In this document: positions 14,166 through 56,892 of the stretch, piece after piece
Position numbering within the stretch: the stretch's first letter is position 1
How the letters are laid out: each line of letters begins with the position of its first letter
NCBI RefSeq assembly: GCF_003865135.1
Contig: NZ_BHZC01000001.1
Location: forward strand, 558,001 to 622,000
Direction: 5' to 3'
DNA length: 64,000 bases
DNA from: Streptomyces chrestomyceticus JCM 4735
GTDB taxonomy: Bacteria > Actinomycetota > Actinomycetes > Streptomycetales > Streptomycetaceae
Made by a program: the position numbers and the translations under genes
Notes under the pieces: generated by a model
Database searches by the model: none
Told to the model about the DNA's origin: nothing
The model's input: only the letters and a program-made list of their open reading frames with translations

Positions 14166-14205
14166 GGTGATGTCGTGCCGTTGCGGTGGTAGAAGGGCTG
14201 CCGGT

Positions 14206-17760: not shown

Positions 17761-17791
17761 TAGGGCTTCGTGGCCTCTGCGTCCGGTGGGG

Positions 17792-31366: not shown

Positions 31367-31825
31367 TCAGCGGTGGTTCCAGTGCTCGGTGTCGACGATC
31401 ACGCGGTGGTCGTTGCGCAGGGTGGCGGTGTCGCGGTGGTTGTCCCAGGCGTAGGTGCGGCGGTTCTGGTAGACGTCGTGCATCGTGTCGTGGCCGCGGC
31501 CGGTGTGGACGCGGACCTGCTGGTGGCCGCCCAGGCGCAGGTGGAAGCGGTAGGTGGTGTGGGTGTGCCGGCTGGTCAGCGTCCAGCCGGTGAGGTTGAC
31601 CGCGTGCCGGCCGGTGTTCTTCACCGTGACCCACTCGGCGTTCAGGCTCCGGTTGGAGCCGTCGTCGCGTCCGGGGCTGTCGGCCTGGACCGCGCCCAGC
31701 ACGACCGGAGAACGGTGCGGAACCGGCAGTTGATGGCCGGTGGCCGAGGCCGGCCCCGCCAGGGCGGCGGCCAGGGCGGCCGATACCGCCGCGGCAGCGG
31801 CCAGACGCGGTGCAAAACGAATCAC
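31367..31825 (-). CDS. Secreted lamin-tail-domain protein
   Basis: A 152-residue exported protein. GTG 31825 has GGAGG five bases upstream. The signal peptide is Ala-rich and cleaved after ASA near residue 29. The mature part is a single lamin tail domain: NAEWVTVKNTGRHAVNLTGW, then TTYRFH, GHQQVRVHTGRGHD, and the terminal TATLRN. Such domains in bacteria are extracellular beta-sandwiches, often on nucleases or surface proteins. Here it stands alone, so it is probably a binding or structural module. Confidence 0.9.
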   Translation of the reverse strand: MIRFAPRLAAAAAVSAALAAALAGPASATGHQLPVPHRSPVVLGAVQADSPGRDDGSNRSLNAEWVTVKNTGRHAVNLTGWTLTSRHTHTTYRFHLRLGGHQQVRVHTGRGHDTMHDVYQNRRTYAWDNHRDTATLRNDHRVIVDTEHWNHR

Positions 31826-42066: not shown

Positions 42067-42433
42067 CCCGGCCCCTTCCCCCTGGGAGCCACCCGTCGAC
42101 GTGAGATCAACTCCCCCTTCATGGCGACGAGTTGTGCTCATCATCGACGGTATACCCACGCCTCCCGCGTCGACAGGCCGAGGAGGCACAGGGGGGAGGA
42201 CGGTCGGCCAGAAGCGCTTCCCGTCCGACGAGGTGGAGGCGGGCGGACAGCAGCTCGATGCCTCGCCTCCGCGCGAGGCGCAGGTCGCCTTCGCTTGTGC
42301 CACCAGCGGCATCCAGCACCACTGCTTCACCGGGCCGCTCCCGCACGATGTCCTCGCGGCCGCGAGCCCCGCCTCCGGTTCGAAGTTCCCTTCGCCGACC
42401 CGCTGACCGGCAGATGACCGACGACCGGCACGG
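42067..42433. other. Gene-free stretch
   Basis: This carries the promoter of the pseudokinase operon and the end of the MFS gene. No frame on either strand looks coding and I see no strong hairpin. Confidence 0.4.
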
Positions 42434-43675
42434 TCAGCGCAGGGAGCGGATCGCCGGGCTCGCGGCGACCAGGCCGGCGCACGCCAGGACGGCGCTGCCG
42501 CAGACCAGGAACAGCGTCGTCGTGCCGTACGGGAGCAGGAGGCCGGCGATCACGTAGGAGAACGGGTCGAACGCCACCGTGGCCAGCACGACGAGGCTGA
42601 GCACTCGCCCCAGCAGGTGCCCGGGCACCCGCTCCTGCAAAGTGGCCACGATGACCACCCCGAGGAACGCCGACCCGAGGCCGACGAGTGAGGCCACCGC
42701 CGTCGCGGCGACGACATGGGTGACGGCGGCGAGACCGGCCGTGCCGGCGCCGATCGCCGCGACCCCGCCGACCACGGTCCAGCCGCGCCGGGTGGGCGGC
42801 CGCCACCCTGCCATCAGTGAGCCGGCCAGTGAGCCGACACCGAAACCGGAGAGCACGACGCCCAGGGATCCCGCGCCGCCGAGGTGCTGATCGGCGAGTA
42901 CCGCGCCGCCCACGAGCACGGGGCCCACGACCGCGATGTTGATCAGGGCGACGGCTGCCAGCATCCCGCGCACCACCGGTTCGTGCCAGGCGTACCTCAA
43001 GCCCGCGCCGAGGGCACGTGCGCTGCTGAGCCGCTCACCGTCGACGGCGTCCCCGGCACCTTCGCCACGCCGGACCACGCGGACGAGCGTGCTGAGGGCG
43101 ACGGCGGCCACCGCGGCCATCGCCGTGATCCCACCCAGAGTCGCTTCGAAGCCGACTGCGGCGACGGCTCCGGCGGCCACCGCCGGGCCGACCAGGTCGC
43201 CCCCCGACTCCGCGCCCTGCACCAGCGCGTTGGCCCGGGAGAGCTTCTCGGTCGGCACGACGGCGGGCAGCATCGCCAGGGCCGCCGGGAAGTACGCGGC
43301 GTCGGCGGCGCCGAGCGTCCCGGCGAGCAGGGCGACCGTCGTCACCGAGGGCGAGGTGAAGGTGACCAGCGCGCCGAGGGCCAGCAGGACGGCGACCCGG
43401 AGCCAGGAGGCGCCGGCCGCGACACGGGCGGGACCGATGCGGTCGACCAGTACGCCGGCCGGAAGCAGGAGTGCCGCTCGCGGCAGCGCCACGGCCACGA
43501 GGACCAGCCCGGTGGCGATCCCCGGTTCCGACAGTTCCAGTACGAAGAGCGTGAGCCAGATGAGGAACAGCGCATCGACCACGGCGGCCAGCCCTTGGCC
43601 CACGATCAGGCGGCGCAGGTGCGGATCGCCGAGCGGCTCGCGCGGCAGGGAGGGGGCGCTCGGCTCCGTCGTCAT
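42434..43675 (-). CDS. MFS exporter (EntS/MFS_3-like)
   Basis: A 413-residue, 12-TM major facilitator of the exporter group that includes enterobactin exporter EntS and tetracycline-type drug pumps. Motif A after TM2 reads GVLVDRIGPARV. ALPAVVPTEKLSRANALVQG is typical of the MFS_3 group. ATG 43675. It lies next to the 44027-54095 biosynthetic operon on the same strand but 350 bases away, so it is a reasonable candidate for exporting that product. This is inference from position only. Confidence 0.88.
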   Translation of the reverse strand: MTTEPSAPSLPREPLGDPHLRRLIVGQGLAAVVDALFLIWLTLFVLELSEPGIATGLVLVAVALPRAALLLPAGVLVDRIGPARVAAGASWLRVAVLLALGALVTFTSPSVTTVALLAGTLGAADAAYFPAALAMLPAVVPTEKLSRANALVQGAESGGDLVGPAVAAGAVAAVGFEATLGGITAMAAVAAVALSTLVRVVRRGEGAGDAVDGERLSSARALGAGLRYAWHEPVVRGMLAAVALINIAVVGPVLVGGAVLADQHLGGAGSLGVVLSGFGVGSLAGSLMAGWRPPTRRGWTVVGGVAAIGAGTAGLAAVTHVVAATAVASLVGLGSAFLGVVIVATLQERVPGHLLGRVLSLVVLATVAFDPFSYVIAGLLLPYGTTTLFLVCGSAVLACAGLVAASPAIRSLR

Positions 43676-44026
43676 GGCCGGCTCCCCGGGTGTGACGGGC
43701 CTGACCTTCCGGCCTGACCCGTTGGCGGACGTGGATCCACTGCGCGGCGAGGCACGCGTCCACGTCGGCGTCGCGCGTCCGGTGGGGTCGTCGCCCGGTC
43801 CTCGTCCCCCCGGAAGCAGCGCTGGGTGTGCCCGGTGACACCGGGACGGACATGACCGCATCGCTCACTGATCGACAACATCAACACACCCGCTCGCAAA
43901 TTCGGGGAGGGGGGACGCGCTGCTGGGACGGAGGAGATGAGGTCCCAGCCGCGAGGACCTTCCTCGTCAGAGAGCGCTGCGTACCTCACAGGGACTGTGG
44001 TGCCGCTCGACGGGGGCGCGGGCATG
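43676..44026. other. Gene-free stretch
   Basis: No gene is supported between the exporter start and the SDR end. It presumably holds the exporter promoter. No clear terminator for the biosynthetic operon was seen. Confidence 0.4.
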
Positions 44027-44872
44027 TCATGGCCGTTGCCTGGCGTCGGCCCGCCGGCACGGCCGTTGCCCGGCCCACCGGCACGCCCGATGGCGCCCAC
44101 GCCACATGGCACTAGGCGATGTGCGTCCCCCGTCGACCGTCAGGGTGGTGCCGGTGATGTAGGACGCGGCGTCGGAGACGAGGAAGACCAGGGCCGCAGC
44201 GAGCTCCTCGGGCTGCCCGATGCGGCCCGAAAGCACCCGCGGCATCATCGCCTCGACGTAGCCCTCGGCGTAACCGTCGGTCATCTCGGAGGTGAAGAGG
44301 CCCGGCGCGAGGGCGTTCACGCGGATGCCCTTGCCGGGGGTCCACTGCTGGGCGAGGTCGCGGGTGAGTCCGAGGAGGCCGGCCTTGGACGCCGAGTAGG
44401 CGGCCTGCGGCAGACCGCCGGTGACCAGCGCGAGAATGCTCGACACGTTGACGATGGCGCTGCCGGGGAGCATCACCGCACCCGCGGCCTGAGCCATCCA
44501 GTAGGAACCGTTGAGGTTGATGTCGACGACCTCGCGGAACTGCTCCGGCGTCTCTTCCGTCGCAGCGTGTTCACTGCTGATCCCGGCGTTGTTGACGAGG
44601 ATGTCCACCCGCCCGAATGCGTGCACGGCCGCGTCGACCAGCGCGCGGCAGTCCGCCGGCTCGGCGACATCGGTACGTACGGTGACGGCCCGGCGGCCGA
44701 GCTTCTCGACGGCCGTGCGCACCGCCGCCAGCCTCTCGGCGCGGCGCGCCCCGAGCGCGACATCGGCGCCGGCCTCCGCCAGCGCGGTGGCGAAGGCGAC
44801 GCCCAGCCCGGAGGAGGCGCCGGTTATCACGGCGACGCGGCCGTCGAGCCGGAAGCGGTCGAGGACGCTCAT
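44027..44872 (-). CDS. Short-chain dehydrogenase/reductase in biosynthetic operon
   Basis: A 281-residue classical SDR. Cofactor motif TGASSGLG, the NNAG motif, catalytic Ser in NVSSILA, and YSASK with the active-site Tyr and Lys. The stretch GARRAER after the Rossmann beta-2 leaves NAD versus NADP open. The conserved family end (TVDGG) occurs about 28 residues before the stop. The extra Arg/Trp-rich tail (RGRHRACRWAGQRP) reads as frameshifted or non-native. It is the last gene of the operon, 49 bases after the ACP. It could reduce a beta-keto or alpha-amino ketone intermediate made by the upstream enzymes. Confidence 0.9.
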   Translation of the reverse strand: MSVLDRFRLDGRVAVITGASSGLGVAFATALAEAGADVALGARRAERLAAVRTAVEKLGRRAVTVRTDVAEPADCRALVDAAVHAFGRVDILVNNAGISSEHAATEETPEQFREVVDINLNGSYWMAQAAGAVMLPGSAIVNVSSILALVTGGLPQAAYSASKAGLLGLTRDLAQQWTPGKGIRVNALAPGLFTSEMTDGYAEGYVEAMMPRVLSGRIGQPEELAAALVFLVSDAASYITGTTLTVDGGRTSPSAMWRGRHRACRWAGQRPCRRADARQRP

Positions 44873-44921
44873 GGCCGCCTGGCCCTGGGGCGAATCGTCC
44901 GGTGCACGGCAGGTCTCCCGG

Positions 44922-45167
44922 TCACCGGTGGTCGGCGATGTAGCTCACCACGTCGCCGACCGTTCGCAACTCCGTGACCAGGTCGTCGGGGATCTTCACC
45001 GCGAACCGGTCCTCGGCCACCACGGTGATCTCCACCATCGACAGGGAGTCGATGTCGAGATCGTCGGTGAAGGACTTCTCGGTGGTCACCTCGGCGGAGT
45101 CGACGCCGACGACCTCTTCGACGATCTTGGCGATGGTGTGCAGAATGTCGGTGCTGTCGTTCGCCAC
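44922..45167 (-). CDS. Acyl carrier protein
   Basis: An 81-residue acyl carrier protein from GTG 45167. The phosphopantetheine site is DLDIDSLSM, the Ser in the DSL motif, preceded by the typical acidic SFTDDL and followed by VEITVVAEDRFAV. Length and charge are those of type II FAS/PKS carriers. It follows the oxoamine synthase by 49 bases. It probably carries the acyl unit for the ketosynthase and/or the alpha-oxoamine synthase of the same operon. Confidence 0.95.
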   Translation of the reverse strand: MANDSTDILHTIAKIVEEVVGVDSAEVTTEKSFTDDLDIDSLSMVEITVVAEDRFAVKIPDDLVTELRTVGDVVSYIADHR

Positions 45168-45216
45168 GGGTTCCTCCGTCTTGTCTGGGGTCGGTGGGGC
45201 GGACCTCGGTGGGATG

Positions 45217-46467
45217 TCAGAGCCCGAGGCGCTGTCGGTAGGTGGCGAGGGTGCGCAGGAAGCCGTCCAGTTGCTCCTCGGTGTGACCCGCGTGCGGGAA
45301 CAGGCGCAGAAGCGCCTGGTTGCGTGCGACGGCCGGGTAGGAGAAGACGGGCACGAGGTAGCCGTCCTCGACGAACCACTCCCGCATCTGCAGGGCGACG
45401 GCGTCGTTCCCGATGGGCACCGAGAGCATGTACGACTCGGTGGGCAGCGTCGGCGTACCGGCCTCGTGCATCTGCCGGCGCAGGCGTGCGGCGTGCGCCA
45501 GGTAGTCGTCGACGATCTCCGGTGTGCCGGCCAGGACATCGATCGTGCGCTCGGCGGCGTACGCGGTGGGCGGCTGGATGGCGGCCGTGAACATGGAGGT
45601 GCCGGAGAGCAGTTCGAAGGCGTCGACGGCCGCCGCCGGTCCGGCGATCGCGCCGCCTTCCAGGCCGACGGCTTTCGACAGGGACACCATGACGAAGTCG
45701 GCCCGCTCCCGGATGGCGGCCGCCTCCCGTGCGTACGGACGGTTCTCGGGCCCGTACACCATGAAGCCGTTCGCATCGTCGATCATGCTGATGGCGCCGT
45801 GCCGGTCGCACGCGTCGAGGATCTCCACGATCGGCCCCATGGTGCCGTCCGCCGAGTAGAGACTCTCGGCGATCACCACGGTCTTGCGGGACCGGTCCCG
45901 GCCCAGGATGCGCGCCAGGTCGGTGACGTCGTTATGCCGGAACGCGTGGACGTTGCGGCCGTAGCCGAGCCCTTCGAGGCCCTTCCAGATGCTCCAGTGG
46001 ACGTCCCGGTCGACGACGAAGACGGTGTCGCGGTTGCGCACCTCGATCCCGGCGTCGAAGTGTGCGGCGCTGCTCATGGCGTGGACGAAACCGATGTTGG
46101 CCAGGAGGCCCGTGGCGAAGCTGATGGCCCGTTCCTTGCCGGTGTGGCGGGCGATCGTCTGCTCCAGCACGTGGTGGGGACGGCAAATCCCCTGGGTCAT
46201 CCTGGATCCGCTGGTGCTCAGGCCGTGGGCGAGCGCCCCCTCGGCGAAATAGCGCCGGACCGGGAGGTGGCGCTCCAGGTCGAGGAAGCTGATGCTCGCG
46301 AAGTTCACCAGCTCGCGGCCGCCACGGACGATGGTCGGCCCGACGGGACCGTCCACCACCGGCGGGCGGTATGCGGTGTCGTGCGTGTTGGCCTCGACGA
46401 AAGCGGCGAAACCCCATGGGGCAAGGCGGTCCACGGACGGTGCGGAGGTGGTGCGGGACGCGGTCAT
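45217..46467 (-). CDS. Alpha-oxoamine synthase family PLP enzyme
   Basis: A 416-residue fold-type I PLP enzyme like 8-amino-7-oxononanoate synthase or serine palmitoyltransferase. It has NFASISFLDL, LSTSGSRMTQGICRPHHVLE, a DDANGF motif and the PLP lysine K265 in SLSKAVG. These enzymes condense an amino acid with an acyl thioester, losing CO2, to give an alpha-amino ketone. In classical members the motif reads DEAHS or similar; here the position is DDANGF, so the amino-acid substrate may differ. ATG 46467 overlaps the TGA of the upstream gene as ATGA. An ACP gene follows, so an ACP-bound acyl donor is likely. Confidence 0.9.
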   Translation of the reverse strand: MTASRTTSAPSVDRLAPWGFAAFVEANTHDTAYRPPVVDGPVGPTIVRGGRELVNFASISFLDLERHLPVRRYFAEGALAHGLSTSGSRMTQGICRPHHVLEQTIARHTGKERAISFATGLLANIGFVHAMSSAAHFDAGIEVRNRDTVFVVDRDVHWSIWKGLEGLGYGRNVHAFRHNDVTDLARILGRDRSRKTVVIAESLYSADGTMGPIVEILDACDRHGAISMIDDANGFMVYGPENRPYAREAAAIRERADFVMVSLSKAVGLEGGAIAGPAAAVDAFELLSGTSMFTAAIQPPTAYAAERTIDVLAGTPEIVDDYLAHAARLRRQMHEAGTPTLPTESYMLSVPIGNDAVALQMREWFVEDGYLVPVFSYPAVARNQALLRLFPHAGHTEEQLDGFLRTLATYRQRLGL

Positions 46468-48470
46468 GGCGAGGTTTCCCCTCCACGGTGGGCGCGGGGC
46501 GGCGAGGGCTCCAGGGCTGCGGCGAGGTGACCGAGCGAAGCCGTTCCGGCCAGCTCGTCCGGCGCGATGCCGGTGAAGCCGGACTGGTCGAGCAGCGCCA
46601 GGAGGCGCGGGACGGCGACCAGGGTGACTCCGTGGTCGGCGAGGCAACGGTTCATGTCCACGGCGTCAGGGCCGGCCGAGGAGCCGGCCGGCGGGCCGCC
46701 CGGTGCGACAGCGGCCACGGCGGCGGCCAGCGCCCGTTCGGCGCCCGACGCAGGCGGGCGCGACGGGAGTTGCCGAGGCCCTGTGCTGTCGGTGGCGGTG
46801 CTGGACTGGACGGACGGCCGACCGGGTGCGGGGCCGGCCGGCGACAGGACGTAGCGGCCCGGGGCCACGACGCCGGGCACTTCACCGAGGTGGTCCAGGA
46901 CGTGGCGGTGCAAGTCGTCGGGGGTGACGCCGGGGGCGGTGCGGACGTGTGCGACGAGGTACGGTCCGTCACCTGCCTCCGCGACCTCCTCGTTCTCCAC
47001 CACGGCGTCCCCGCTGGGCGCCACCGTCACATCGAGCACTCCGGGGTGGCGGCGCAGCACCTCTTCGACCGTGGTCAGGCGCACCCATCCCTGCGGGGCG
47101 CGCCACCAACCGGCGGCGGCCGGGGTGAGCGGGCGGGCCGGGACCGGGCACTCGGCACCGTCGGCGAGCGCTCGCAGGAAACCGCACAGCCGGACGGGTA
47201 ACGCCAGGGCCTGCCCGGCATCGAGCAGGTGGTCCCCGACGGTGACATCGAGGGTGACGAGCCCCCCGTCGCGGCCGAGGTCGACATAGAGCGTTTCGCA
47301 GGGCTCGTCGGGCGCGCTGCTGATCCAGGTGCTGGGCCCCTCCGGCGGAGTGTTCTGCGTGGGGACCAGGTAGTCGCGCGGCCACGAGTAGCAGTTGTAC
47401 TCGATGGTGGGTACGGTCACGACACCGCGGCGGCGGTCCATCCGGGCCTGGGCGGCGACCAGTTCCGCGGGGCGCCACTGACCGTGCCGGTAGGCCGTGG
47501 CGGAGGCGGCCGTCACCGAGGCGACCACCTCGCCGAACGCCGCACCGGGCCGGAGGTCGATCTGTACCGGAACCGTCAGGGCCTGGACGCCGACGCTGTT
47601 GCGCAGGGCGGCCCGGGCCCGGTTGGACACCACGACCGACGCGAGGAACCGGTGTTCGCCGGTGCGGGTGGCGACGTCGTGGGCGAGCGCCGCGAGCACC
47701 ACGACCTCCGGACTGGCCCGATACCGCCGGGCGACGCGTTCGAGGTCATCGTACGCGGCCGCCGAGCGGTGCTGGAGGCGGTGGCGGCCCTCCCCGTTCT
47801 CGCTCCCGCCGAACGGGGCCAGTACGCCCGTCGGATTGCCGGCGAGACGCGTCAGCCACTCATGCTCTGCTGCGCGGGCGCGTTCCGGAAGCTGGGCGGC
47901 GACCGTGTCGAGCGGGTGCAGGGGCGCCCCCGCCGGTACGTCGTGGCCGCGCAGGTGGTCGTGCAATTGGCTGATCAGGACCGCCAGCCCCCACCCGTCG
48001 ATGAGTACGTGGTGGGCGGCCATCAGGACCGCACGCGGCTCCCCTGCCTCCAGCAGCACCCTGGCGAGCCAGGGCGGATTGCGCTCGGGATCGATCGGGC
48101 GGGCGGCCAGCGCCGCTGTGGCGGCCTCCAAGGTGGCGGCATCGGCGGCGGGGACATCGACGTGATCGACCGGCAGCGGGGCCCAATCCGCGCGGTGGAC
48201 GTGCTGTACGGGACGGAGCGGGTCGACAGTGCTCCGCAGCGCCTCGTGGCGGGCGGTGAGGGACGCGAGCGCCGCGTGCACGTCGGCGACGGTTGCCGGG
48301 GGCGGGACGTGGCAGTGGTCGGCGAGCGGTGTCGGGTTCACCCGCCGCGATGAGGGAATGGTGCGTTCGAACCAGTGCCACTGCTGGACCCAGTTCAGCG
48401 GCCCGCTGCGGATGACGGTGGCGGGGCTCGTCGGCGGTTCCGGAAGGTGCTGCACGGCCCGAGACCTCAT
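46464..48470 (-). CDS. Stand-alone condensation-domain protein with decayed A/PCP tail
   Basis: 668 residues. An NRPS condensation domain (about 20-445) has the catalytic HHVLIDG (H153, H154, D158). It is followed by a region like the C-terminal subdomain of an adenylation enzyme (about 495-600: TVEEVLRRHPGVLDV, YLVAHVRT, LGEVPGVVAPGRYVL) without the catalytic Lys. Then comes a carrier-like end (about 605-665) in which the GGDS site is replaced by ADHGVT. Hence it should form an amide or ester but not activate or carry substrates. ATG 48470 overlaps the ketosynthase stop as ATGA. The nucleophile could be the amino ketone from the next gene; the donor is unknown. Confidence 0.88.
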   Translation of the reverse strand: MRSRAVQHLPEPPTSPATVIRSGPLNWVQQWHWFERTIPSSRRVNPTPLADHCHVPPPATVADVHAALASLTARHEALRSTVDPLRPVQHVHRADWAPLPVDHVDVPAADAATLEAATAALAARPIDPERNPPWLARVLLEAGEPRAVLMAAHHVLIDGWGLAVLISQLHDHLRGHDVPAGAPLHPLDTVAAQLPERARAAEHEWLTRLAGNPTGVLAPFGGSENGEGRHRLQHRSAAAYDDLERVARRYRASPEVVVLAALAHDVATRTGEHRFLASVVVSNRARAALRNSVGVQALTVPVQIDLRPGAAFGEVVASVTAASATAYRHGQWRPAELVAAQARMDRRRGVVTVPTIEYNCYSWPRDYLVPTQNTPPEGPSTWISSAPDEPCETLYVDLGRDGGLVTLDVTVGDHLLDAGQALALPVRLCGFLRALADGAECPVPARPLTPAAAGWWRAPQGWVRLTTVEEVLRRHPGVLDVTVAPSGDAVVENEEVAEAGDGPYLVAHVRTAPGVTPDDLHRHVLDHLGEVPGVVAPGRYVLSPAGPAPGRPSVQSSTATDSTGPRQLPSRPPASGAERALAAAVAAVAPGGPPAGSSAGPDAVDMNRCLADHGVTLVAVPRLLALLDQSGFTGIAPDELAGTASLGHLAAALEPSPPRAHRGGETSP

Positions 48471-49744
48471 ACTGCCCGGACCACGAGAGCGGCGTTGTGG
48501 CCGCCGAAGCCGAACGAGTTGCTCAACGCGATCCGGATATGTTCGTGGCGCTGCGTCCGGTGCGGCACGAAGTTGATGTCCGGGTCGATCGGTTCGTCGC
48601 AGTTGATGGTCGGCGGGACGTCCCCCGTCCGGAGGGCCTGGATCGACGCCACGAGCTCGACCGCCCCGGCGGCGCCGATCATGTGCCCGGTCATCGACTT
48701 GGTGGAGCTGACCGGGATACGGGTGACCCGGTCTCCCAGTACCTTGCGCAGGACGGTCGCCTCGATGGCGTCGTTCAGCAGCGTTCCGGTGCCGTGCGCG
48801 TTGACGTAGTCCACGTCCGCCCCCGTGATCCCCGCGTCGCGCAGCGCCGCCTCGACGGCACGGCACGCGCCCCGTCCCTCCGGATGCGGGGCGGTCCAGT
48901 GATGCGCGTCGGACGTCGCTCCGTAGCCGATGAGTTCGGCCAAGGCCGCCGCCCCTCGTCTGTCGGCCACCTCGGCGGCCTCCAGCACCACCACGGCGGC
49001 TCCCTCACTCATCACGAACCCGTCGCGCCGCGCATCGAACGGACGGCATGCCGCAGCCGGATCGTCGTTACGCCTCGACAGCGCGCGGGCGTTGCCGCTG
49101 CCCGCGAGGTCGACGGCGGTGACGCAGGCGTCGGCGCCGCCGGCGAGGACGATGTCGGCCTCCCCATGGCTGATCATGCGCATCCCCGCGCCCACCGCGT
49201 CCGCGCCGCTGGCACACGCCGTGCTCTGGGCACGGCTGGGCCCCTGGGTGCCGATGCGCAGGCTGATCTCTCCGGCAGCGCTGTCCATGGCGGTCGTGAC
49301 CTGGGTGAAGGGGACGATGGCCCGTGGCCCTTTGTCGCGCAGGATGTTCGCCGCGCGGTAGATCGACCCGACCGGGCCGTACCCACTGCCGATGATCACG
49401 GCGACCCGCGGCGCCAGACGGTCGTCGACGACGAGTCCGGCGTGCTCACAAGCCTCCAGCGCCGCGGCGAGGGCGAACTGCGCGTACGGGTCGGCGCGAC
49501 GGCTGACCATCGGGGGCATGTAGCGGTCGGGGGCGAAGCCGCGGACCTGGCCACCGATCCGGACTGCGAGATCGGTCAGGTCGAACGCGTCCACGGTGTC
49601 GATGCCGCTGCGCCCGGCCAGCATCGCCGTCCATGTCTCGTCGACGCTGTGGCCCAGCGGCGTCACCGCCCCGTACCCGGTGACCACCACCTGGCGCCCG
49701 TCCCGGCCGCGCCTTGCGTCACCGCGCTCTCCTGCGTCGGTCAC
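48467..49744 (-). CDS. Beta-ketoacyl-ACP synthase II (FabF-like)
   Basis: A 425-residue KAS II-type ketosynthase with the full catalytic set: Cys177 in STACASG, His in NAHGTGT and His in KSMTGHMIGAAG. It ends with NSFGFGGHNA. It condenses an acyl thioester with malonyl-ACP by decarboxylative Claisen reaction. GTG 49744 overlaps the upstream stop as GTGA. A partner chain-length factor is absent, so it resembles a FAS-type KAS acting alone in a short chain extension. The ACP of the operon is the likely partner. Confidence 0.94.
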   Translation of the reverse strand: MTDAGERGDARRGRDGRQVVVTGYGAVTPLGHSVDETWTAMLAGRSGIDTVDAFDLTDLAVRIGGQVRGFAPDRYMPPMVSRRADPYAQFALAAALEACEHAGLVVDDRLAPRVAVIIGSGYGPVGSIYRAANILRDKGPRAIVPFTQVTTAMDSAAGEISLRIGTQGPSRAQSTACASGADAVGAGMRMISHGEADIVLAGGADACVTAVDLAGSGNARALSRRNDDPAAACRPFDARRDGFVMSEGAAVVVLEAAEVADRRGAAALAELIGYGATSDAHHWTAPHPEGRGACRAVEAALRDAGITGADVDYVNAHGTGTLLNDAIEATVLRKVLGDRVTRIPVSSTKSMTGHMIGAAGAVELVASIQALRTGDVPPTINCDEPIDPDINFVPHRTQRHEHIRIALSNSFGFGGHNAALVVRAV

Positions 49745-51441
49745 TGGGGAATCACCCCGGCGCCGTCGCGGAGGGGCGGGGGTATGTCGTCGGGGGCGAC
49801 CGGCACCATGAGCACGGCTGTGCCTCCCTGTGCGCAGAACTGCCGCCCGGCAAGAATCTCCCTGGTCAGCGTGGCCTTGTCGCGCAGCACCCGGTAGTGG
49901 ATGTCCGCTCCGTCCACCACGGGCGGCGGGGCGCCGGGGCGGGTGAAGGGGTAGCGTTCGGCGTCGAGGCCGAGGCGGGCGCGTTGGGCGTCCAGCCAGC
50001 CGTAGCCGCCGTTGCACAGCACCACGTACAGGACGCCGCCGTGGGCCGGAGCGGTGACGGCGATGTCCGCGCGGGCCGCGAGGAACGCTCCGTCCCCGAT
50101 GAACGCGGTGACCTCGTGATCCGGGGCGGCTCGCTTGACCCCGATGGCCGCGGCCGCTCCGAACCCCAGGGGGGTCTGCTCGGACGGCACGATGGAGCCG
50201 CCACCGAGGTGGAAGGGGAAGCAATAGGACCACATGTCCTGCAGCCCGTTCTCCTGGACCAGCACACGGGGCTCGCCCGAGGTGGCATCGAGTGCGGCGA
50301 GCAGCTCGGCGATGCGGATCTCCGACAGCGTCGCCGCGCGGGCCAGTTCCGCTTCCGCCTCGGACGACATGGCCTTACGGACGACGGCGATCTCGTTCAC
50401 CCATGCCGCGGTCCCGTCCGCGGGCCCGGCTTTGCGGTCCTCGTCCAGCGCCCGTGACCAGCCGAGCACCGCGTGCCGGGCGTCACCGAGCACGCGCGGG
50501 CCCGGGAACTCGGCCGACAGCCCGCCCGGATCAATGTTGACCTGCACGACCGCGACCGGGGGCCACGGCGTTCCGCCTTCGACTACGGTCTCCTCAAGTC
50601 GCCCGGCGAGCGACACCACCAGGTCGCAGGACGACCACAACTCACGGGCGGGGGCCGCGGTGTAGAGACCCGCGACGCCACAGAACAGCGGGTGACGCTC
50701 GTCGACGGCACCGCGGCCGGACGCGGTGGTGAACAGCGCAGCGCCGAGGCGTTCGGCGAAGCGCTCGACCACGCCACCGTCGTTACGGTGCCGCATTCCG
50801 CCGCCCACCAGCACCACCGGACGCCGGCTCGCGCGGATGGCTGTCCATGCCGGGCCGGGTGTCGGGGGGACGGGGTCGACGGGCAGCGTTTCGGGCAGGG
50901 TCGGCGGCGGACCGGTGACGAGGATCTCCGCCGTGCGGACGTCATCGGGTATCTCCAGGTACACGGGTCCGGGCGGCGGCCCCGCAGCTCGGGTCAGCGC
51001 CGTCACCGTCGCGGGGACGACCCGGCCCGGATGCCCCACCCGGTGCGCCCACCGCACGAGGGGCGCTGTCACCGCGACCTGGTCGCATTCCTGGAATCCG
51101 CCGCTGCCCCGGCGCCGTTCGGGCGCGCCGGCGGCGAGCACCAGGACCGGCGCACCGGACTCCCGCGCCTCCAGCAGTCCCGTGGCCGCGTGCGTGACAG
51201 CCGGCCCTTTGCCCAGTGCGCAGACGGCGAGCCGGCCTGACTGGAGCGCGTAGCCGGTCGCCATGTACACCGCGTTGCGCTGGTCACGGCACGGCACCAG
51301 GTCCACGCCGGCCGTGTCGAGGGCGCGCAGCAACTCCAGATCGTCACCGGGCAGCCCGAAGCAGCTTTCCACCCCGTTCGCCACCAGCAGGCCGACGATC
51401 GCCGACCACGCGTCGGCGTACCGCTTCCCCACCCCGGTCAC
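49741..51441 (-). CDS. Thiamine-diphosphate enzyme (acetolactate synthase-like)
   Basis: A 566-residue three-domain ThDP enzyme of the pyruvate decarboxylase/acetolactate synthase family. PYR domain near 1-170, central domain about 190-330, PP domain about 370-540 with the cofactor motif GDGAFLAARADIAV and NGGYG. The position that normally holds the cofactor-activating Glu (RHEQGA) reads RDQRNA, so this Glu appears replaced by Gln. Such changes occur in a few members and alter reactivity. The probable reaction is acyloin-type carboligation of an alpha-keto acid with an aldehyde. Coupled by ATGA to the upstream ANL-ALDH gene, which could supply that aldehyde. Confidence 0.88.
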   Translation of the reverse strand: MTGVGKRYADAWSAIVGLLVANGVESCFGLPGDDLELLRALDTAGVDLVPCRDQRNAVYMATGYALQSGRLAVCALGKGPAVTHAATGLLEARESGAPVLVLAAGAPERRRGSGGFQECDQVAVTAPLVRWAHRVGHPGRVVPATVTALTRAAGPPPGPVYLEIPDDVRTAEILVTGPPPTLPETLPVDPVPPTPGPAWTAIRASRRPVVLVGGGMRHRNDGGVVERFAERLGAALFTTASGRGAVDERHPLFCGVAGLYTAAPARELWSSCDLVVSLAGRLEETVVEGGTPWPPVAVVQVNIDPGGLSAEFPGPRVLGDARHAVLGWSRALDEDRKAGPADGTAAWVNEIAVVRKAMSSEAEAELARAATLSEIRIAELLAALDATSGEPRVLVQENGLQDMWSYCFPFHLGGGSIVPSEQTPLGFGAAAAIGVKRAAPDHEVTAFIGDGAFLAARADIAVTAPAHGGVLYVVLCNGGYGWLDAQRARLGLDAERYPFTRPGAPPPVVDGADIHYRVLRDKATLTREILAGRQFCAQGGTAVLMVPVAPDDIPPPLRDGAGVIPQ

Positions 51442-54095
51442 TTCCCACGCACCGCGACAGGGGCGGCAGTCGGCAGATGCTGCGCCACGGCCTGCGACAT
51501 GAGCAGGGGTTCGGCGTGCCGCTCGCCGCCGTAGGAGAGGTAGTTCGCCCGCATCCCGAATCCGCCGAACGGACGATTGCCGTCCTCGGCTTCGAGCAGC
51601 GTGTGGTTGACACAGGTGTGGTGACGCTTGGACAGTACCGCCACCGTATCCGGATCGTTTCCGTAGACCATCGCTCCCAGTGCGCGTTCGCCGAAATAGG
51701 GGCTTGCCAACCGTTCGCGCAATCGCCGCGCACTGTGATAAGCAACGACGTTGAAGACCGGGGCGAACATCTCGTCAAGGGGAATCTTGTCGTCGAAGTC
51801 CCACAGCAGCACTGTCGGTTCGACCCTGCGGGACAGCAGATCGATGCGTCCGCCGTGCCGGATGCGGCTCACCTGACGTACCAGGTAGTCCGAGCAGTTC
51901 ACCAGCGCCGAGTCGTAGTGGATGGGTCCGTAGTCGGCGGCAGGGTCGTTGTTGTGCCCAAAACGCAACGACGTCAGATGCGTGGACAAGAGGTCGACGA
52001 ATTCCTCGGTGCGGCCCTGCGGCGCGAAGACGACGTCGGGGCCGAAGCAGTCCTGACCGGAATTGTAGAGCCGGATTTTCGTCACGTCGTGTACGGCGCG
52101 GGTGAGATCGGCGTCGGGTGCGATCACGAAGGGATTGATGCCGCGGCCGAAGAAGAGGAAGAGCTGGTCTTCCGCCAGCCCTTCACGGACGGTCTCGGCG
52201 TGGGAGTAGTTTCCGGTGAAGGCGATGAGATCCGCCTCGCGCACCGGCCCCGTCACGAACTTGCGTTGACTGAGGTCGAAAAGCTCGACGGGCAGTCCAT
52301 GAACCGGCGCCAGCAGCTCGTGCAGGCGTCGCATCTGGCTCTTGATCTCGGAGGACGGTCGAAAGGTGATCCGGTCGGTGTAAAGAGACGCCACGAGCAT
52401 GTACAGCGCGTAGGAATAGAGCGGGATGTTGGAGGGTGTGAAGACCGCGGCCCGGGGCACGCAGCCAGGACGGGCCCGGCGGATCTCCTCCTCCGCCCCG
52501 TCGAGGGTGGCGAGGAACGAACGGATCTCCGCGTCGGCCGTGTGGTGGGGCGATATCTCGGTGAGAATGCCCAGCACCACGTCTTCGTTGGCGGCCACGT
52601 ACCGGCGCACTGCGCGCAGCGCGTCCACCCGGTCGCCGAAGGGGATGCGGTAATCGGTCGCGCCGACGGCCGAGCCGGACGCGAAGACGTCGGTGGCCGT
52701 GGTGTGCGACGCGGGTAATGCGGTCATGGCTATCTTCTCCAGAACGGCCAGGTCGGGCTTTCCCGTACTGGTGAGAGGCAACGCGGGAAGCACGACGATG
52801 TGGTCGGGCTGCTCGTAACGGGCGAGCACCGGGCGCAGCGCCCGTCGCCAGTGCGCGGGCTCGTGACCGTCCGGGTCCGTGATCACGAACACCAGCCGGC
52901 AGCCCAGGCGCTCGTCGGGGACGGCGACGACCTCCGTCTGCGCGCCGGCCGACTCGGCCCGCTCGGCGAGATGGTCGGGGTAGAGAGTGTGGCCGTCACG
53001 GTGCACGGCGTGCTTGCGCCCGACGGGGAAGACGCGGCCGGCGTCGTCGAGCCGACCGATGTCCCCGGTGCGGTGCACAGGACCGGAAACCGGCACCACC
53101 TCCCCGTCGTCGCCCAGGTGACCGGTCATCAGGCCGCTGCTGCGTACGACGAGCTCACCGAGCCGGCCGTGGGGAAGCGGCCTGCCCTGATCGTCGTGGA
53201 CCTCGACGACCACGCCCGGCAGCGGTGTGCCGCACCCGACCGGATCGGCCGGAGGAGCCAGCGCGATGTTGCCCACCTCGGTCGCTCCGTAGCCGTCGAG
53301 CAGGCGCCGGCCGGTGCGGGCGTGGAACCGGGCCGCCAGGCTGCGGCCCAGCGGCGCGCCGCCCACGCACCAGGCTCGTACCGTCTTCAGCGCGTCGGCG
53401 AGAGCGGGACGGCGGTCGAACAGGTTGAGCAGGCTGTGATAGGTCGACGGGGCCGCGTCCACTATGGAGAGACCGTGGTCCACGCCGGCCGCAAGGGCGC
53501 GGTCCAGGCGCGTGGTGGGCCCGTAGACGACCAGCGTGCCTCCGCCCAGCCACCAGCAGAGGACCAGCGACAGACCATATTGGTGGGAGTACGGCAGCAC
53601 GGGCAGGAAGACGTCGTCGGGCCGGTACCCCATGCGTTCCGCGCTGAGTGCGAGGTTGTCCAGAATCGAGCGGCCGGAGCGGACAATCCCTTTGGGACTG
53701 CCAGTCGTGCCCGACGACCACGAGATGGCGGCGTCCTGGCGCCGCGACCAGGCTGCGACATCAGGCACGGCTACCGTGTGCGAAACGGGCCCTGCCGCCG
53801 CGACGCCGCCCGTACTGTCGCTGATTTCCTGCACGACGCGCGCGTGAACGCGAATCCGCGCCCGCTGTGACGGGACGGCTCGATGATCAACCAGAACCAC
53901 CGAAGCGTCGAGGTGAATGAGCGCGAGCAGATCGACGACCCATTCCGGGGAATTGGCCCGGCTCAGCATCACCCGTGAACCGGGCTCGATGCCGCGTCGT
54001 GCGAGAAGTTCAACGGCACCGGATAATCGGGCCGCGATGTCATCCGTCTCCCAGATACGCCCCTCGGGCGAGACCAAGCGCCTGAATATGGGCAA
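51438..54095 (-). CDS. ANL acyl-activating domain fused to aldehyde dehydrogenase-like reductase
   Basis: An 885-residue fusion. Residues about 1-450 form an ANL adenylating enzyme: SSGTTGSPKG, GYGATE, HRTGDIG and the final LTSTGKPD Lys. Residues about 455-885 form an ALDH-like domain: TPSNIPLYSYA with the oxyanion Asn, catalytic Cys683 in NSGQDCFGP, and LDEMFAPVFNV. The usual general-base Glu (LELGG) reads FLFFG, which fits acyl reduction rather than aldehyde oxidation. Together they could convert a carboxylic acid to an aldehyde in one chain, as LuxE plus LuxC do separately. The start is TTG 54095, with GAGGAGCGAGAG before it. It heads a seven-gene operon with overlapping junctions. Confidence 0.88.
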   Translation of the reverse strand: MPIFRRLVSPEGRIWETDDIAARLSGAVELLARRGIEPGSRVMLSRANSPEWVVDLLALIHLDASVVLVDHRAVPSQRARIRVHARVVQEISDSTGGVAAAGPVSHTVAVPDVAAWSRRQDAAISWSSGTTGSPKGIVRSGRSILDNLALSAERMGYRPDDVFLPVLPYSHQYGLSLVLCWWLGGGTLVVYGPTTRLDRALAAGVDHGLSIVDAAPSTYHSLLNLFDRRPALADALKTVRAWCVGGAPLGRSLAARFHARTGRRLLDGYGATEVGNIALAPPADPVGCGTPLPGVVVEVHDDQGRPLPHGRLGELVVRSSGLMTGHLGDDGEVVPVSGPVHRTGDIGRLDDAGRVFPVGRKHAVHRDGHTLYPDHLAERAESAGAQTEVVAVPDERLGCRLVFVITDPDGHEPAHWRRALRPVLARYEQPDHIVVLPALPLTSTGKPDLAVLEKIAMTALPASHTTATDVFASGSAVGATDYRIPFGDRVDALRAVRRYVAANEDVVLGILTEISPHHTADAEIRSFLATLDGAEEEIRRARPGCVPRAAVFTPSNIPLYSYALYMLVASLYTDRITFRPSSEIKSQMRRLHELLAPVHGLPVELFDLSQRKFVTGPVREADLIAFTGNYSHAETVREGLAEDQLFLFFGRGINPFVIAPDADLTRAVHDVTKIRLYNSGQDCFGPDVVFAPQGRTEEFVDLLSTHLTSLRFGHNNDPAADYGPIHYDSALVNCSDYLVRQVSRIRHGGRIDLLSRRVEPTVLLWDFDDKIPLDEMFAPVFNVVAYHSARRLRERLASPYFGERALGAMVYGNDPDTVAVLSKRHHTCVNHTLLEAEDGNRPFGGFGMRANYLSYGGERHAEPLLMSQAVAQHLPTAAPVAVRGK

Positions 54096-55145
54096 CTCTC
54101 GCTCCTCAACGCCAGGGCGTGTTCAAGTTCCTGGACGTACACGTTTGTGAACCCACGAGCACGCAATCACGCAATAACGTCTGCTTCTGTTCAACGAGCG
54201 ACTATCCCATACCCGCAGACCGGTGTCGAGTACGGCAAGAACACGCCATGAAACGTGCGGTGTCGCTGAATACGCAGTGACGGAAGGGAAAAGCGAAAAG
54301 TGGCCGATTATGGTCGGCTGATGCGCGACGCGAACGCGGTGCGTGACGGCGTCCATGCTGCGACGACGGAACATATCGGCATCCCCGTTCCAGGGATAGG
54401 CTCTGACGCTCGTTCCTGTGGAACGTAACGCTGCGTGTGGGACCTGGCCTGATCCGGCCGGAATGGTAAGCCGGTGGACGGCGGCGGTAGCGCACGCGAG
54501 CGCGGCCTGAATGTGTGAGTGCAATCGATGCACCTGTGTACGCGATCCGGAGTTGCCGGTCGGCCCCGCGCTGTCGGGCGCCATGAACGAGGTAAGGGGT
54601 TCCCCGGACGGGACACTGCTGTTGGACCTGCCGGGCGTGCGGACCACGGTGGTCACCTCCGTCGACGGTGGCTCGCTCCCAGAAGGCCGCCCGGCCCGAG
54701 GATCTCTTTCGCGGCCAGTGGCAGGCCAGAGCCGCACGAGCAAGCTCGACCCCTTCAAGCCGTACTGAGGCGGCAGATGTTCGGCCGAGCCGGCTTCGTG
54801 CTCCTGCGCAAGCGAGTACTCCTCGCTTCGTGACCGTTGTCAGTGGTGGCTGGAATGCTGTGACCGCCATGAACAGTCGCACACCGGCCTGCTGTCCATG
54901 GCCGGCGGCCGCAGCGAAGTTCTCTGCGTCGGCCTGTTCACCTGCTGCCCGGCTGGAGCGGCCCCGCACTGGCCGGTGGAACGGTCGTGCTCTGCGTCAG
55001 CCCCGTACCTCTCGCCGCTGTGCTCCCCCTCTCCATCGGCATCTCGGCCGCAAACACCCACGACAGCCAGCACCTGGCGCAGAGAGATGGCGACAGTGGA
55101 CAATTCGTGACTGTGAGGTTCTCCACGCGGACGGAGCGAAACTCG
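54096..55145. other. Long intergenic region
   Basis: About one kilobase with no gene I can support. It must contain the promoter of the minus-strand biosynthetic operon and of the plus-strand TPR gene. A plus-strand stretch at 54580-54670 reads somewhat protein-like (GTLLLDLPGVRTTVVTSVDG), but it has no domain I know and no clean start. Part of 54200-54450 is unusually AT-rich for this genome, fitting promoter DNA. Confidence 0.4.
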
Positions 55146-56214: not shown

Positions 56215-56700
56215 TCAGCCGGCGGGTAGCCGGGTGCCGACAATCACGCTGAGGTCTGCTGCGAGGCGTGGCTCTGTGTCTCGAAGTTCGGGGTCTTCGG
56301 GCCAGTGCGGTCGAGCCTGGTCGGGGGGCCGTTCAAGCGAGGGGGCCACGTGGTGGCCGGGGTGAAGCCGTCGATCACTACTGTGCCACCGGCGGCGAGC
56401 AGGCGAGCGGGATCCGCGGCGCCATCACCTTTGGCCTGGCCTCCGCCGTCGAGCACGAGTACGTCATGGGGGCCGTGCTCTTCGACGCGCTGCCAGTCGC
56501 CGTGGAAGATCGCCACGTCGGGGCAGCCCCGGAAGACCTCCGCGGCGATGCGGGCTCGGTCCGGGTTCCGTTCGACACTGGTCAGTCGGGTTCCTGAGTC
56601 CGCGCCGGAGGCCAGCCAGGCCAGCCCGACACCGCAGACTGTTCCGGTCTCGGCGATGCTGTGGAGCGCCCCTGCGGCCAGCACCTGGAGCAGACGTCAC
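56215..56700 (-). pseudogene. SAM-dependent O-methyltransferase, frameshifted and truncated
   Basis: On the minus strand, one frame has ALHSIAETGTVCGVGLAWLA, LTSVERNPDRARIAAEVF, VLVLDGGG and VVIDGFTPATTWPP, the Rossmann core of a class I O-methyltransferase. After about 56335 the C-terminal continuation is in another frame: ARPHWPEDPELRDTEPRLAA then VIVGTRLPAG to the stop at 56215. The N-terminal substrate-binding helices are missing. It is a relic with at least one frameshift and a 5' truncation, possibly caused by the arrival of the neighbouring regulator gene. Confidence 0.75.
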
Positions 56701-56809
56701 TGTTCGGGCTGTGGAGAAGGCGAAGCGGAGCCAGGCGGCCGGGTGGGGCGGGCCCCGCGTTCGTACGGCCGCAAGCCAACCCGACGCTCACCAGACGCAA
56801 CAGGAAATT

Positions 56810-56849
56810 CCACCCGCAAAAGTAGGTTGCGGCATACTTTTGCGGGTGG
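56810..56849. promoter_or_regulatory. 15-bp perfect inverted repeat before the NB-ARC regulator
   Basis: CCACCCGCAAAAGTA and its exact complement (56810-56824, 56835-56849) are separated by ten bases, about 44 bases ahead of ATG 56893. An AT-rich centre flanked by GGGTGG arms suggests a binding site for a dimeric regulator, possibly the XRE domain encoded downstream. It could also act as a hairpin ending transcription from upstream. Confidence 0.75.
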
Positions 56850-56892
56850 GGTTGCGCATCCGGTGGGCCCTGGCGTCGTGGGGGCTTTGAGG

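Follow-up and report, generated by a model that had tools for sequence, protein, structure and literature searches.

An eight-gene Streptomyces operon with predicted non-canonical active sites that may produce an acylated amino ketone or amino alcohol

INTRODUCTION

What might a single pathway make with an adenylate-forming ligase fused to an aldehyde dehydrogenase (ANL-ALDH), a ThDP-dependent enzyme, a β-ketoacyl-ACP synthase (KAS), a condensation-domain (C) protein, an α-oxoamine synthase (AOS), an acyl carrier protein (ACP), and an SDR oxidoreductase? The question is raised by a locus of Streptomyces chrestomyceticus JCM 4735 that lies within the 64,000-nucleotide stretch of DNA analyzed here, hereafter the window. 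Parts of this inventory are familiar. Pathways of the prodigiosin and tambjamine type, like the operon, bring together a ThDP enzyme, a KAS, an oxoamine synthase, and an ACP. The LuxE/LuxC systems and the carboxylic acid reductases adenylate an acid and then reduce the thioester to an aldehyde.

RESULTS AND DISCUSSION

Architecture of the operon

The seven minus-strand genes that an earlier note on this DNA had placed at 44027-54095 are all open, and they run in the order ANL-ALDH to SDR. The overlaps that it had described between the first five genes are present as four stretches of four bases, namely GTGA, GTGA, ATGA, and ATGA, and gaps of 49 bases precede both the ACP and the SDR genes. All seven proteins score above the Pfam gathering thresholds, and the enzyme families assigned previously thus stand: PF00501 plus PF00171 (fused), PF02776/PF00205/PF02775, PF00109/PF02801, PF00668, PF00155, PF00550, and PF13561. 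The description of a seven-gene operon has to be extended, however, because an MFS transporter gene, found in 19 of 21 relatives, belongs to it as an eighth member. The features are as follows, all on the minus strand.

54096-54260, minus: leader and promoter region, partly conserved, with a GGTATGGGATAGTC-like block and a ribosome-binding site
51438-54095, minus: ANL-ALDH fusion, 885 residues, TTG start; PF00501 (8e-52), PF00171 (2e-25), and PF13193; in 21/21 relatives
about 52701-54095, minus: ligase half of ANL-ALDH, an adenylate-forming ligase
about 51441-52700, minus: aldehyde dehydrogenase half of ANL-ALDH; catalytic Cys683, codon 52047-52049
49741-51441, minus: ThDP-dependent enzyme, 566 residues; PF02776/PF00205/PF02775; in 21/21 relatives
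51280-51282, minus: codon of Gln54 of the ThDP enzyme, at the catalytic Glu position by alignment to AHAS and glyoxylate carboligase
48467-49744, minus: FabF-type KAS, 425 residues; TIGR03150; in 20/21 relatives
46464-48470, minus: C protein, 668 residues; PF00668 (6e-20)
about 47151-48353, minus: C domain with HHVLIDG; PF00668, with fold matches to NRPS C domains
46836-47108, minus: probable relic adenylation C-terminal subdomain of the C protein (predicted secondary structure, alignment A3)
46512-46745, minus: probable PCP-like four-helix domain of the C protein; Thr616 (codon 46623-46625) at the presumed phosphopantetheine Ser site
45217-46467, minus: AOS, 416 residues; PF00155 (5e-29); in 21/21 relatives
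45769-45771, minus: codon of AOS Asn233, which replaces His in DDANG by alignment; the PLP lysine is Lys265 in SLSKA
44922-45167, minus: discrete ACP, 81 residues, DSL motif; PF00550 (2e-13); in 18/21 relatives
44027-44872, minus: SDR oxidoreductase, 281 residues; PF13561 (1e-60); in 18/21 relatives
42434-43861, minus: MFS transporter, 475 residues, start uncertain; PF07690 (2e-24); in 19/21 relatives

The conservation of the leader was read from an alignment of 17 upstream regions, including that of the window. TTA codons, which are usual in antibiotic genes, occur in the ANL-ALDH gene of the window and in that of nine of the ten relatives checked.

Distribution and gene loss

Searches with tblastn located the complete eight-gene set, in the same order, in 14 of the 21 relatives, and each flanking gene family, as delineated by a crude ORF caller written for the purpose, recurs in at most three of the relatives' loci. 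Judged by the loss-of-synteny condition that the earlier note had set, the order was retained, with gene losses in seven of the 21. The view of the earlier note that the genes constitute a functional unit is borne out, and from this conservation the eight genes almost certainly form one pathway. Operon context was read at loci with retrieved DNA, a subset of the listed proteins, and the lists of homologous proteins comprised the best 120 of 426 and the best 120 of 160. Two loci on the same contigs as others (L062 and L063, equivalent to L019 and L023) were left out of the count, as was the operon of genome G023, which was seen only as the short pieces L003 and L046.

The seven incomplete loci differ from one another. 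That of S. rimosus (L028) retains a 60-residue KAS remnant, lacks the ACP, and keeps the remaining operon genes. The ACP is missing from L022 and L029 and the SDR from L031, the SDR of L014 is reduced to a remnant, and the contig of L030 ends before the MFS gene. The S. bluensis variant (L026) is without the C domain and the SDR and MFS orthologues, and a GNAT acyltransferase gene is present; two arginase-family genes adjoin this one locus. Either these loci reflect partial loss of the pathway or the parts of the fatty-acid-synthase type are replaceable, and the losses of KAS, ACP, and SDR weaken the exact scheme proposed below.

The operon is dispersed across Streptomyces, and a small number of related bacteria also carry it. 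It occurs in S. rimosus, S. olivoreticuli, and S. eurocidicus and, by protein matches, in Amycolatopsis alba; one of the scans behind these occurrences employed six exact peptide patterns and was not exhaustive. The AOS occurs at an identity of at least 88% in six of 295 genus genomes, the source genome included. A quick tree of the ThDP enzymes, built from the window sequence, three outgroups, and a subset (27) of the 70 full-length proteins listed as close relatives, places Actinocrispum among Streptomyces, with 12 of its 28 inner branches open and three starred. The operon was probably spread by horizontal transfer, as indicated mainly by its patchy occurrence and unshared flanks and less by this tree. 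Among the matches listed from a plasmid collection, no record carries the operon. The best AOS match listed there is a 48% enzyme from Eleftheria terrae with the other operon genes absent nearby, and the ANL-ALDH matches are generic; the ThDP matches pointed to the plasmid-borne trios of ligase, ALDH, and ThDP enzyme described below.

We regard it as doubtful that the cluster has already been characterized in some paper or MIBiG entry. It does occur in well-studied strains, but the source names of its proteins are generic, and among the papers listed by full-text searches of a mainly open-access literature, several of them limited to 10-25 entries, none deals with the operon.

The ANL-ALDH fusion

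The core motifs of the ligase, its GK lysine, and Cys683 of the ALDH are invariant in 21 aligned rows. The general-base Glu of the ALDH, on the other hand, is replaced in all eight rows compared, with the Cys retained. A Pfam scan at E values up to 0.001 gave PF00501, PF00171, and PF13193 only, with no LuxC family. The reductase half thus belongs to the PF00171 aldehyde dehydrogenases and not to the LuxC family, and the LuxE/LuxC-like acid reduction suggested by the earlier note holds as an analogy of logic only. Pfam likewise detects no PF00550 carrier domain in the fusion, which separates it from the carboxylic acid reductases. The AlphaFold model, with a mean pLDDT of 46, is unusable and thus lends no structural support to a transfer between the two halves.

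A Gln-type ThDP enzyme

The three Pfam domains of the ThDP enzyme, together with the GDG and the N of the GDG...N motif in all 123 rows, assign it to the decarboxylase superfamily. According to the available text of PMC3534367, the catalytic Glu (standard position 51) is found in 94% of sequences. In the operon enzyme it is replaced by Gln, as it is in all 70 close relatives whose sequence includes this position (72 are listed, of which P0071 and P0072 are partial and do not include it), in 48 of 48 proteins of about 50% identity, and in three of three at about 35%. The Glu is kept in all six generic ThDP controls. The 13 Gln rows of that control comparison correspond to 10 distinct places, given the duplicates L004/L055, L005/L056, and L006/L039; the L034 row does not extend over the site.

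The glyoxylate carboligase family also lacks the Glu and is described as a carboligase with a reportedly different mechanism (PMC3534367, available text). By alignment, glyoxylate carboligase has a Val at this site, whereas the operon enzyme has a Gln and, at 144 bits with PRK11269 against a cut-off of 791, falls outside that family. No description of a Gln-type active-site class was found in literature searches, and a word count of PMC12247030 gave no occurrence of Gln or Glu51. The substitution could reflect altered chemistry.

The ligase, the ALDH, and the Gln-type ThDP enzyme recur in LanKC lanthipeptide-synthetase clusters and on Streptomyces plasmids. The LanKC clusters (L032, L033, L035, L055, and L056) share with the operon the Gln-type ThDP enzyme, a KAS, an MFS protein, and a corresponding ligase, ALDH, or both. 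What they add are LanKC, GNAT, and proteins resembling RNR-beta and enoyl reductase; neither the AOS nor the C protein was found in their retrieved DNA. Conversely, no RamC_N or LanC match was observed in the eight operon genes and eight other genes of the window that were scanned, which sets the operon apart from lipolanthine clusters. The lipolanthine nocaviogua contains a guanidino fatty acid, for which the available text of PMC10435860 describes a polyunsaturated guanidino chain and no gene cluster; the idea that the shared module builds this fatty acid in known lipolanthines was set aside on that account.

These neighborhoods bear on a route that would run in the reverse direction. Here an aldehyde would arise through decarboxylation of a 2-oxo acid, for example one of amino-acid origin, by the ThDP enzyme. 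The ALDH would convert this aldehyde to an acyl thioester, and the ligase, with the KAS and ACP, would use it as a chain primer. Consistent with such a route are the 160 bits scored by the ThDP enzyme on the 5-guanidino-2-oxopentanoate decarboxylase model, although the cut-off is 500; the arginase-family genes beside the S. bluensis variant, although they were seen at one locus only; and the lanthipeptide-type clusters, which pair the same genes with a KAS and an enoyl-reductase-like SDR, and in L055 and L056 with an ACP. The ligase would be superfluous, however, if the ALDH supplied the thioester, and the loss of the Glu resembles glyoxylate carboligase rather than the decarboxylases. We consider the reverse route unlikely.

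The oxoamine synthase and the C protein

The AOS matches PF00155 with 102 bits, and its Lys265 is present in 120 of the 120 listed homologues, as expected of the PLP lysine of an α-oxoamine synthase. At 213 bits with TIGR00858, against an equivalog cut-off of 426, it is not assigned to the 8-amino-7-oxononanoate synthases (BioF). The D-x-x-H of ALAS, SPT, and AONS is replaced by DDAN, with the Asn found in all 120 listed homologues; the five solved templates that were aligned all contain a His at the position of Asn233. This substitution, too, could reflect altered chemistry. At the amino-acid selectivity position, as mapped here, 116 of the 118 covering rows contain a Ser, which is also the residue given for AONS and SPT in the available text of PMC11906848. 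The same text cites Alb29 and SxtA as PLP enzymes that form α-amino ketones in natural-product pathways; the operon AOS matches the Alb29 structure 8xha at just 7e-12. In four other genomes, AOS enzymes of the DDAN clade adjoin a type I PKS (L059 and L060) or a type II-like KAS (L057 and L058), neighbors that fit a release of carrier-bound chains by the AOS.

The C domain scores 71.8 bits with PF00668, against a gathering score of 30.6, and is thus of the NRPS condensation type. Its HHxxxDG motif is present in all 91 listed relatives of the C protein (67-98% identity; one alignment contained 48 of these), and among the matches listed the next relative beyond this family stands at 32%. The presumed phosphopantetheine site is a Thr in 91 of 91 listed relatives rather than the Ser of an NRPS module (C-A-PCP). 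Between this region and the C domain lies a segment with a predicted β-β-α-β-β-α-β arrangement from which the catalytic Lys motif is absent. The model of the C protein (pLDDT 60, pTM 0.43) contains helices at the PCP-like region. Foldseek and VIA rows are to NRPS C domains, mainly over residues 31-451; the few longer rows, which match entire NRPS modules, reach residues 654-662 with rmsd values of 13-20 Å. A sequence profile of the C-terminal part gave no PDB match, and Pfam finds only PF00668 in the whole protein. From the secondary structure, the motif spacing, and these few longer rows, the C-terminal part of the protein looks, tentatively, like an NRPS relic composed of an A-subdomain and a non-carrier PCP-like domain. 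A role in N-acylation would fit the S. bluensis variant, in which the C domain is lost and the GNAT acyltransferase gene is present.

The KAS, ACP, and SDR

With 512 bits on TIGR03150, above the equivalog cut-off of 493.75, the KAS is of the FabF type. On a reading of its sequence, the catalytic Cys and the two His residues are intact, and the closest other copy in its own genome is at 47%. The ACP is at 54% to the other matching ACP of the genome. In most relatives, matches to the SDR span the first 89% of the protein.

A proposed pathway

The suggestion of the earlier note, an acylated α-amino ketone or amino alcohol, is supported as what would be the most economical product class. We infer the order of the steps, the substrates, and the product as follows, and give about an even chance to the proposal that the operon, as a self-contained natural-product unit, makes and exports a small acylated α-amino ketone or 1,2-amino alcohol in this manner. 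In the first step, it is rather likely that the ligase half would adenylate a carboxylic acid and load it onto the ALDH Cys, and that the Glu-less ALDH, a poor hydrolyser of the thioester, would reduce it to the aldehyde. The Gln-type ThDP enzyme would then couple the aldehyde to an acyl anion derived from a 2-oxo acid, a step that we favor slightly. Given the chemistry of these families, an extension of the acyl chain with malonyl units by the KAS and ACP can be proposed with good confidence, and the link between the second and third steps is a gap in the scheme. A decarboxylative condensation by the AOS with a small amino acid, which would free the ACP-bound chain, is likely; Ala or Ser is suggested tentatively as that amino acid. 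The C protein would, fairly probably, form an amide on the new amine. Finally, the SDR would reduce a ketone, and the MFS protein would export the product.

Known pathways resemble this scheme in part. None of the eight operon genes is a pyrrole-forming (pyrrolyl-PCP) or condensing gene of the prodigiosin type; the PigJ model, whose cut-off is 900 bits, gives the KAS just 85, and the C domain, the ANL-ALDH fusion, and the exporter are additional in the operon. In the carquinostatin and neocarazostatin carbazole pathways, ThDP carboligation leads into a condensation of the KAS type in which the partner chain is bound to an ACP (PMC7466098, available text). Those pathways have a KASIII-like KAS and need a carbazole synthase, whereas in the operon the KAS is of the FabF type and an AOS and a C domain follow.

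A pyrrole or pyrrolinone might instead arise from the β-ketoacyl-ACP of the KAS and the α-amino ketone of the AOS, joined through an amide by the C protein and closed by a Knorr or Knoevenagel reaction. All three required enzyme families are encoded in the operon, and in a one-pot cascade AOS products and β-keto esters readily gave pyrroles (PMC11906848, available text). A cyclase and an oxidase are absent from the operon, however, and the ligase, the ALDH, and the ThDP enzyme would be left unused, such that this product appears rather improbable. Most improbable is the notion that the KAS and ACP have no biosynthetic role and are extra fatty-acid synthase components, kept for self-resistance or supply, around a core of ANL-ALDH, ThDP enzyme, C protein, and AOS: although the KAS exceeds the FabF equivalog cut-off, L028 keeps its other genes with a KAS remnant and without an ACP, and L022 and L029 are without the ACP, the KAS directly follows the same type of ThDP enzyme in clusters of other kinds (L032, L033, L034, and L035) and is retained in 20 of the 21 relatives.

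CONCLUSIONS

Three catalytic domains, those of the ThDP enzyme, the ALDH, and the AOS, have non-canonical active sites by alignment. These, the relic NRPS part that the C protein seems to carry, and a ligase/ALDH/ThDP set shared with lanthipeptide-synthetase and plasmid clusters are additions to the earlier reading. We suggest, as a conjecture held with less than even confidence, that the ThDP enzymes of the Gln type (RDQR) constitute a mechanistic class of carboligases in its own right that, with the ligase and the Glu-less ALDH, would form a portable acid-to-aldehyde-to-acyloin module reused in this operon, for lanthipeptide acyl chains, and in plasmid clusters. In the operon, the DDAN-type AOS would release the chain as an acylated amino ketone with a new scaffold, which might then cyclize to a pyrrole or pyrrolinone. 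If this is true, a compact and easily cloned pathway would be present in about 2% of the sampled genus genomes, and a ThDP active-site class not described in the literature searched, amenable to a test by the single point mutation Gln54 to Glu, would have been found. The module would also allow predictions about the chemistry of clusters of other, unrelated kinds, the lanthipeptide-synthetase clusters among them.

Operon organization

The operon at positions 44027-54095 of the window is composed of seven genes encoding, in order, an adenylate-forming ligase fused to an aldehyde dehydrogenase (ANL-ALDH), a ThDP enzyme, a KAS, a condensation-domain protein (the C protein), an oxoamine synthase, an ACP and an SDR. 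As described in the earlier note, the seven genes lie on the minus strand and the first five overlap (GTGA, GTGA, ATGA and ATGA at successive gene ends). All seven are intact reading frames, and Pfam agrees with the family that the note assigned to each product. A scan of the neighboring genes added an MFS transporter (42434-43861), which lies 165 bases past the SDR gene. The TTG start of the ANL-ALDH gene (51438-54095, minus strand) is common to 14 of 17 aligned upstream regions, including that of the window, and rare TTA codons lie within this gene, as they do in nine of the ten relatives checked.

The source genome is a single 9.38-Mb contig, with the window located at 0.56-0.62 Mb. A large HTH/NB-ARC/TPR regulator (56305-59115, plus strand) is oriented away from the operon, and a gene for a protein kinase-like product that includes a septum-formation domain (40282-42330, minus strand) lies past it. 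The former had no tblastn match in the DNA examined around the relatives' operons, nor was the latter matched within the DNA examined from operon relatives. A tRNA-Ala with anticodon AGC, unusual in this bacterial group, was called by ARAGORN at 31549-31636 (plus strand) and is possibly false.

Conservation and spread

A pattern scan with the ThDP protein across 84,980 species, each represented by a single genome, yielded 26 loci, 20 of which (L012-L031) showed 75-90% identity. These and L061, with two duplicates removed, form the set of 21 relatives. By tblastn, the ANL-ALDH, ThDP enzyme and oxoamine synthase were detected in all 21, the KAS and C protein in 20 each, the MFS transporter in 19, and the ACP and SDR in 18 each. 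The loss of synteny that the earlier note had proposed to look for was not seen: the order held, with all eight genes in order in 14 relatives. The seven incomplete operons are L014, L022, L026, L028, L029, L030 and L031, and in two of them the other operon genes are present beside the following defects:

L028 (Streptomyces rimosus), 11698-11885 and 15147-15286: KAS cut to ~60 residues, ACP missing
L014, 16510-17306: SDR remnant of ~55 residues

By tblastn, L022 and L029 are without the ACP and L031 is without the SDR. The sequence of L030 stops 866 bases beyond its SDR match.

Each gene family flanking the operon was found in three or fewer of the loci; L015 and L021 have several neighbors in common, and any other pair has one or none. 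Occurrence is patchy. A search with the oxoamine synthase located the operon in six of 295 genomes of the genus, and the ThDP protein was present at 87% identity or above in three of 100 genomes sampled as relatives (both counts include the source genome). In a phylum sample of 396 genomes the operon occurred in its own genome alone, and one other, G149, has a ThDP relative at 46% identity. Operon proteins from Kitasatospora, Amycolatopsis and Kibdelosporangium were also among the matches listed, and the operon loci examined outside Streptomyces belong to Solihabitans (L022) and Actinocrispum (L027). The Actinocrispum ThDP enzyme is 87-88% identical to that of the window, compared with 82% for L061 and 74-75% for S. 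varsoviensis, and a quick tree placed it, with weak support, among Streptomyces. Given the conserved order, the unshared flanks, the patchy occurrence and an Actinocrispum ThDP enzyme closer than those of some Streptomyces, the eight genes probably travel as one cassette.

Active site features

In alignment, Gln 54 of the ThDP enzyme, within an RDQR motif, occupies the position of the catalytic glutamate of acetohydroxyacid synthase. Among the matches listed, glutamine was present in all 70 close relatives that include this position (two further, partial sequences do not extend to it), in 48/48 proteins of ~50% identity and in 3/3 of ~35%; generic ThDP controls displayed glutamate (6/6). A superfamily survey gives glutamate in 94% and valine in 3%, the latter typical of glyoxylate carboligase, for which another mechanism is stated (PMC3534367).

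The catalytic cysteine of the ALDH half is invariant in 21 aligned sequences. The general-base glutamate is replaced in 8/8 sequences compared, by phenylalanine in those from the operon and from three other loci (L053, L055 and L056) and by serine, threonine or glycine in those from plasmids. An ALDH without this glutamate should hydrolyze its thioester poorly, and thus the replacement fits reduction of a ligase-delivered acyl group.

The oxoamine synthase aligns a DDAN motif with the D-x-x-H of ALAS, SPT and AONS, and its asparagine is present in all 120 homologues listed. In our alignment a serine, as in AONS and SPT, maps to Val 79 of ThAOS, which one report describes as tuning the amino-acid substrate (PMC11906848). 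Four further genomes of the genus contain DDAN-clade enzymes of 43-45% identity, which adjoin type I PKS modules in L059 and L060 and type II-like KAS genes in L057 and L058, the L058 enzyme being fused to a thioesterase-like domain. Such neighbors fit an enzyme that releases chains from their carrier as amino ketones. The KAS/ACP pair is the sole carrier-linked chain maker within the operon, and the best other copies in the genome are 47% (KAS) and 54% (ACP) identical. Note that the FabF-like gene beside the other matching ACP (G000:C1:6493168-6494420) appears as two fragments containing an internal TGA, either an assembly frameshift or a broken gene.

The C protein

Among the matches listed from 5.8 billion proteins, the C protein has 91 relatives at 67-98% identity, followed by one NRPS at 32%, and among the loci read it is confined to this operon. 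Of the relatives that carry a species name, the nearest, at 98%, comes from Streptomyces chrestomyceticus. Judged by these comparisons it is a separate family. The HHxxxDG condensation motif is present in 91/91 relatives. The final 220 residues look, in the predicted structure, like a relic NRPS module: residues 455-545 are predicted to fold as β-β-α-β-β-α-β, as in an adenylation C-terminal subdomain without the lysine motif, and residues 576-653 as helices with carrier protein-like spacing, with threonine at the presumed carrier serine position in all 91 relatives. Neither Pfam nor a sequence profile recognized this region. Five of 50 structural matches reach residues 654-662, all of them whole NRPS modules (rmsd 13-20 Å). 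The mediocre model (pLDDT 60), those rmsd values and the lack of a Pfam or profile match, however, count against the relic-module reading.

In S. bluensis (L026), the ANL-ALDH, ThDP enzyme, KAS, ACP and oxoamine synthase are retained at 57-79% identity, just pieces of the C-terminal part of the C protein are left, and downstream lie a GNAT gene and additional SDR genes. This replacement suggests that acylation of the amine is the role of the GNAT and of the C domain alike. Upstream are two arginase-family genes that may or may not belong to the pathway.

The proposed pathway

In our best reading, we infer substrates, step order and product from the observed genes, conservation and motifs. The ANL-ALDH would convert an acid to an aldehyde for carboligation by the ThDP enzyme, the KAS and ACP would extend the chain, and the oxoamine synthase would release it as an amino ketone. 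The C protein would form an amide, the SDR would reduce the ketone, and the MFS transporter would export the product. As a precedent, a study of carbazole biosynthesis describes a KAS-type enzyme using a ThDP product (PMC7466098). The scheme is weakest at the junction between the ThDP product and the amino ketone; a second weak point is the strains without KAS, ACP or SDR.

Knorr-type closure of the product to a pyrrole is plausible, given that amino ketones and β-keto esters react readily (PMC11906848), but nothing in the operon requires it. The enzyme families are known, but no description of the gene combination, the C protein family or the Gln-type ThDP clade was found in the open literature searched. 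It seems unlikely that the cluster has already been assigned.

The ligase/ALDH/ThDP module elsewhere

Eleven of the places examined outside the operon contain an RDQR-type ThDP relative (34-50% identity; the L034 sequence does not extend over the motif). Both ligase and ALDH lie within 13 kb of it in seven: L035, L053, L055 (with L064), L056 (with L066) and the Streptomyces plasmids L038, L039 and L040, where the three genes are contiguous. L032 and L033 have the ligase without ALDH, the examined DNA stopping at the ligase. In plasmid L041, counted as having the ALDH alone, the ALDH adjoins the ThDP gene and the sole ligase match, 9 kb off, is weak, and L034 has ThDP, KAS and SDR alone, with neither partner inside 10 kb. 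Both the fusion in the operon and the recurrence of these genes together favor sequential action of the ligase, ALDH and ThDP enzyme on one substrate.

In L038 (S. zaomyceticus) the trio (12520-17881) is directly upstream of an annotated enediyne antibiotic chromoprotein and ~10 kb from an annotated tyrosine 2,3-aminomutase gene. In L040 (pSMg1-3 of Streptomyces sp. Mg1) it is accompanied by a KAS-like gene, a HAD-IIIC phosphatase, two ATP-grasp genes and an annotated ribonucleotide reductase beta subunit. KAS, ligase and/or ALDH, and an RNR-beta-like protein accompany the RDQR ThDP enzyme in L032, L033, L035, L053-L056, L064 and L066. LanKC was not detected in the examined DNA of L053/L054 (G149), which has the gene set. 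In L032, L033, L035, L055 and L056, a lanthipeptide synthetase (LanKC) lies near the ThDP gene. MFS genes and RNR-beta-like genes occur there too, and most of the five also have a GNAT and an enoyl-reductase-like SDR. These five places may possibly direct the synthesis of uncharacterized acylated lanthipeptides.
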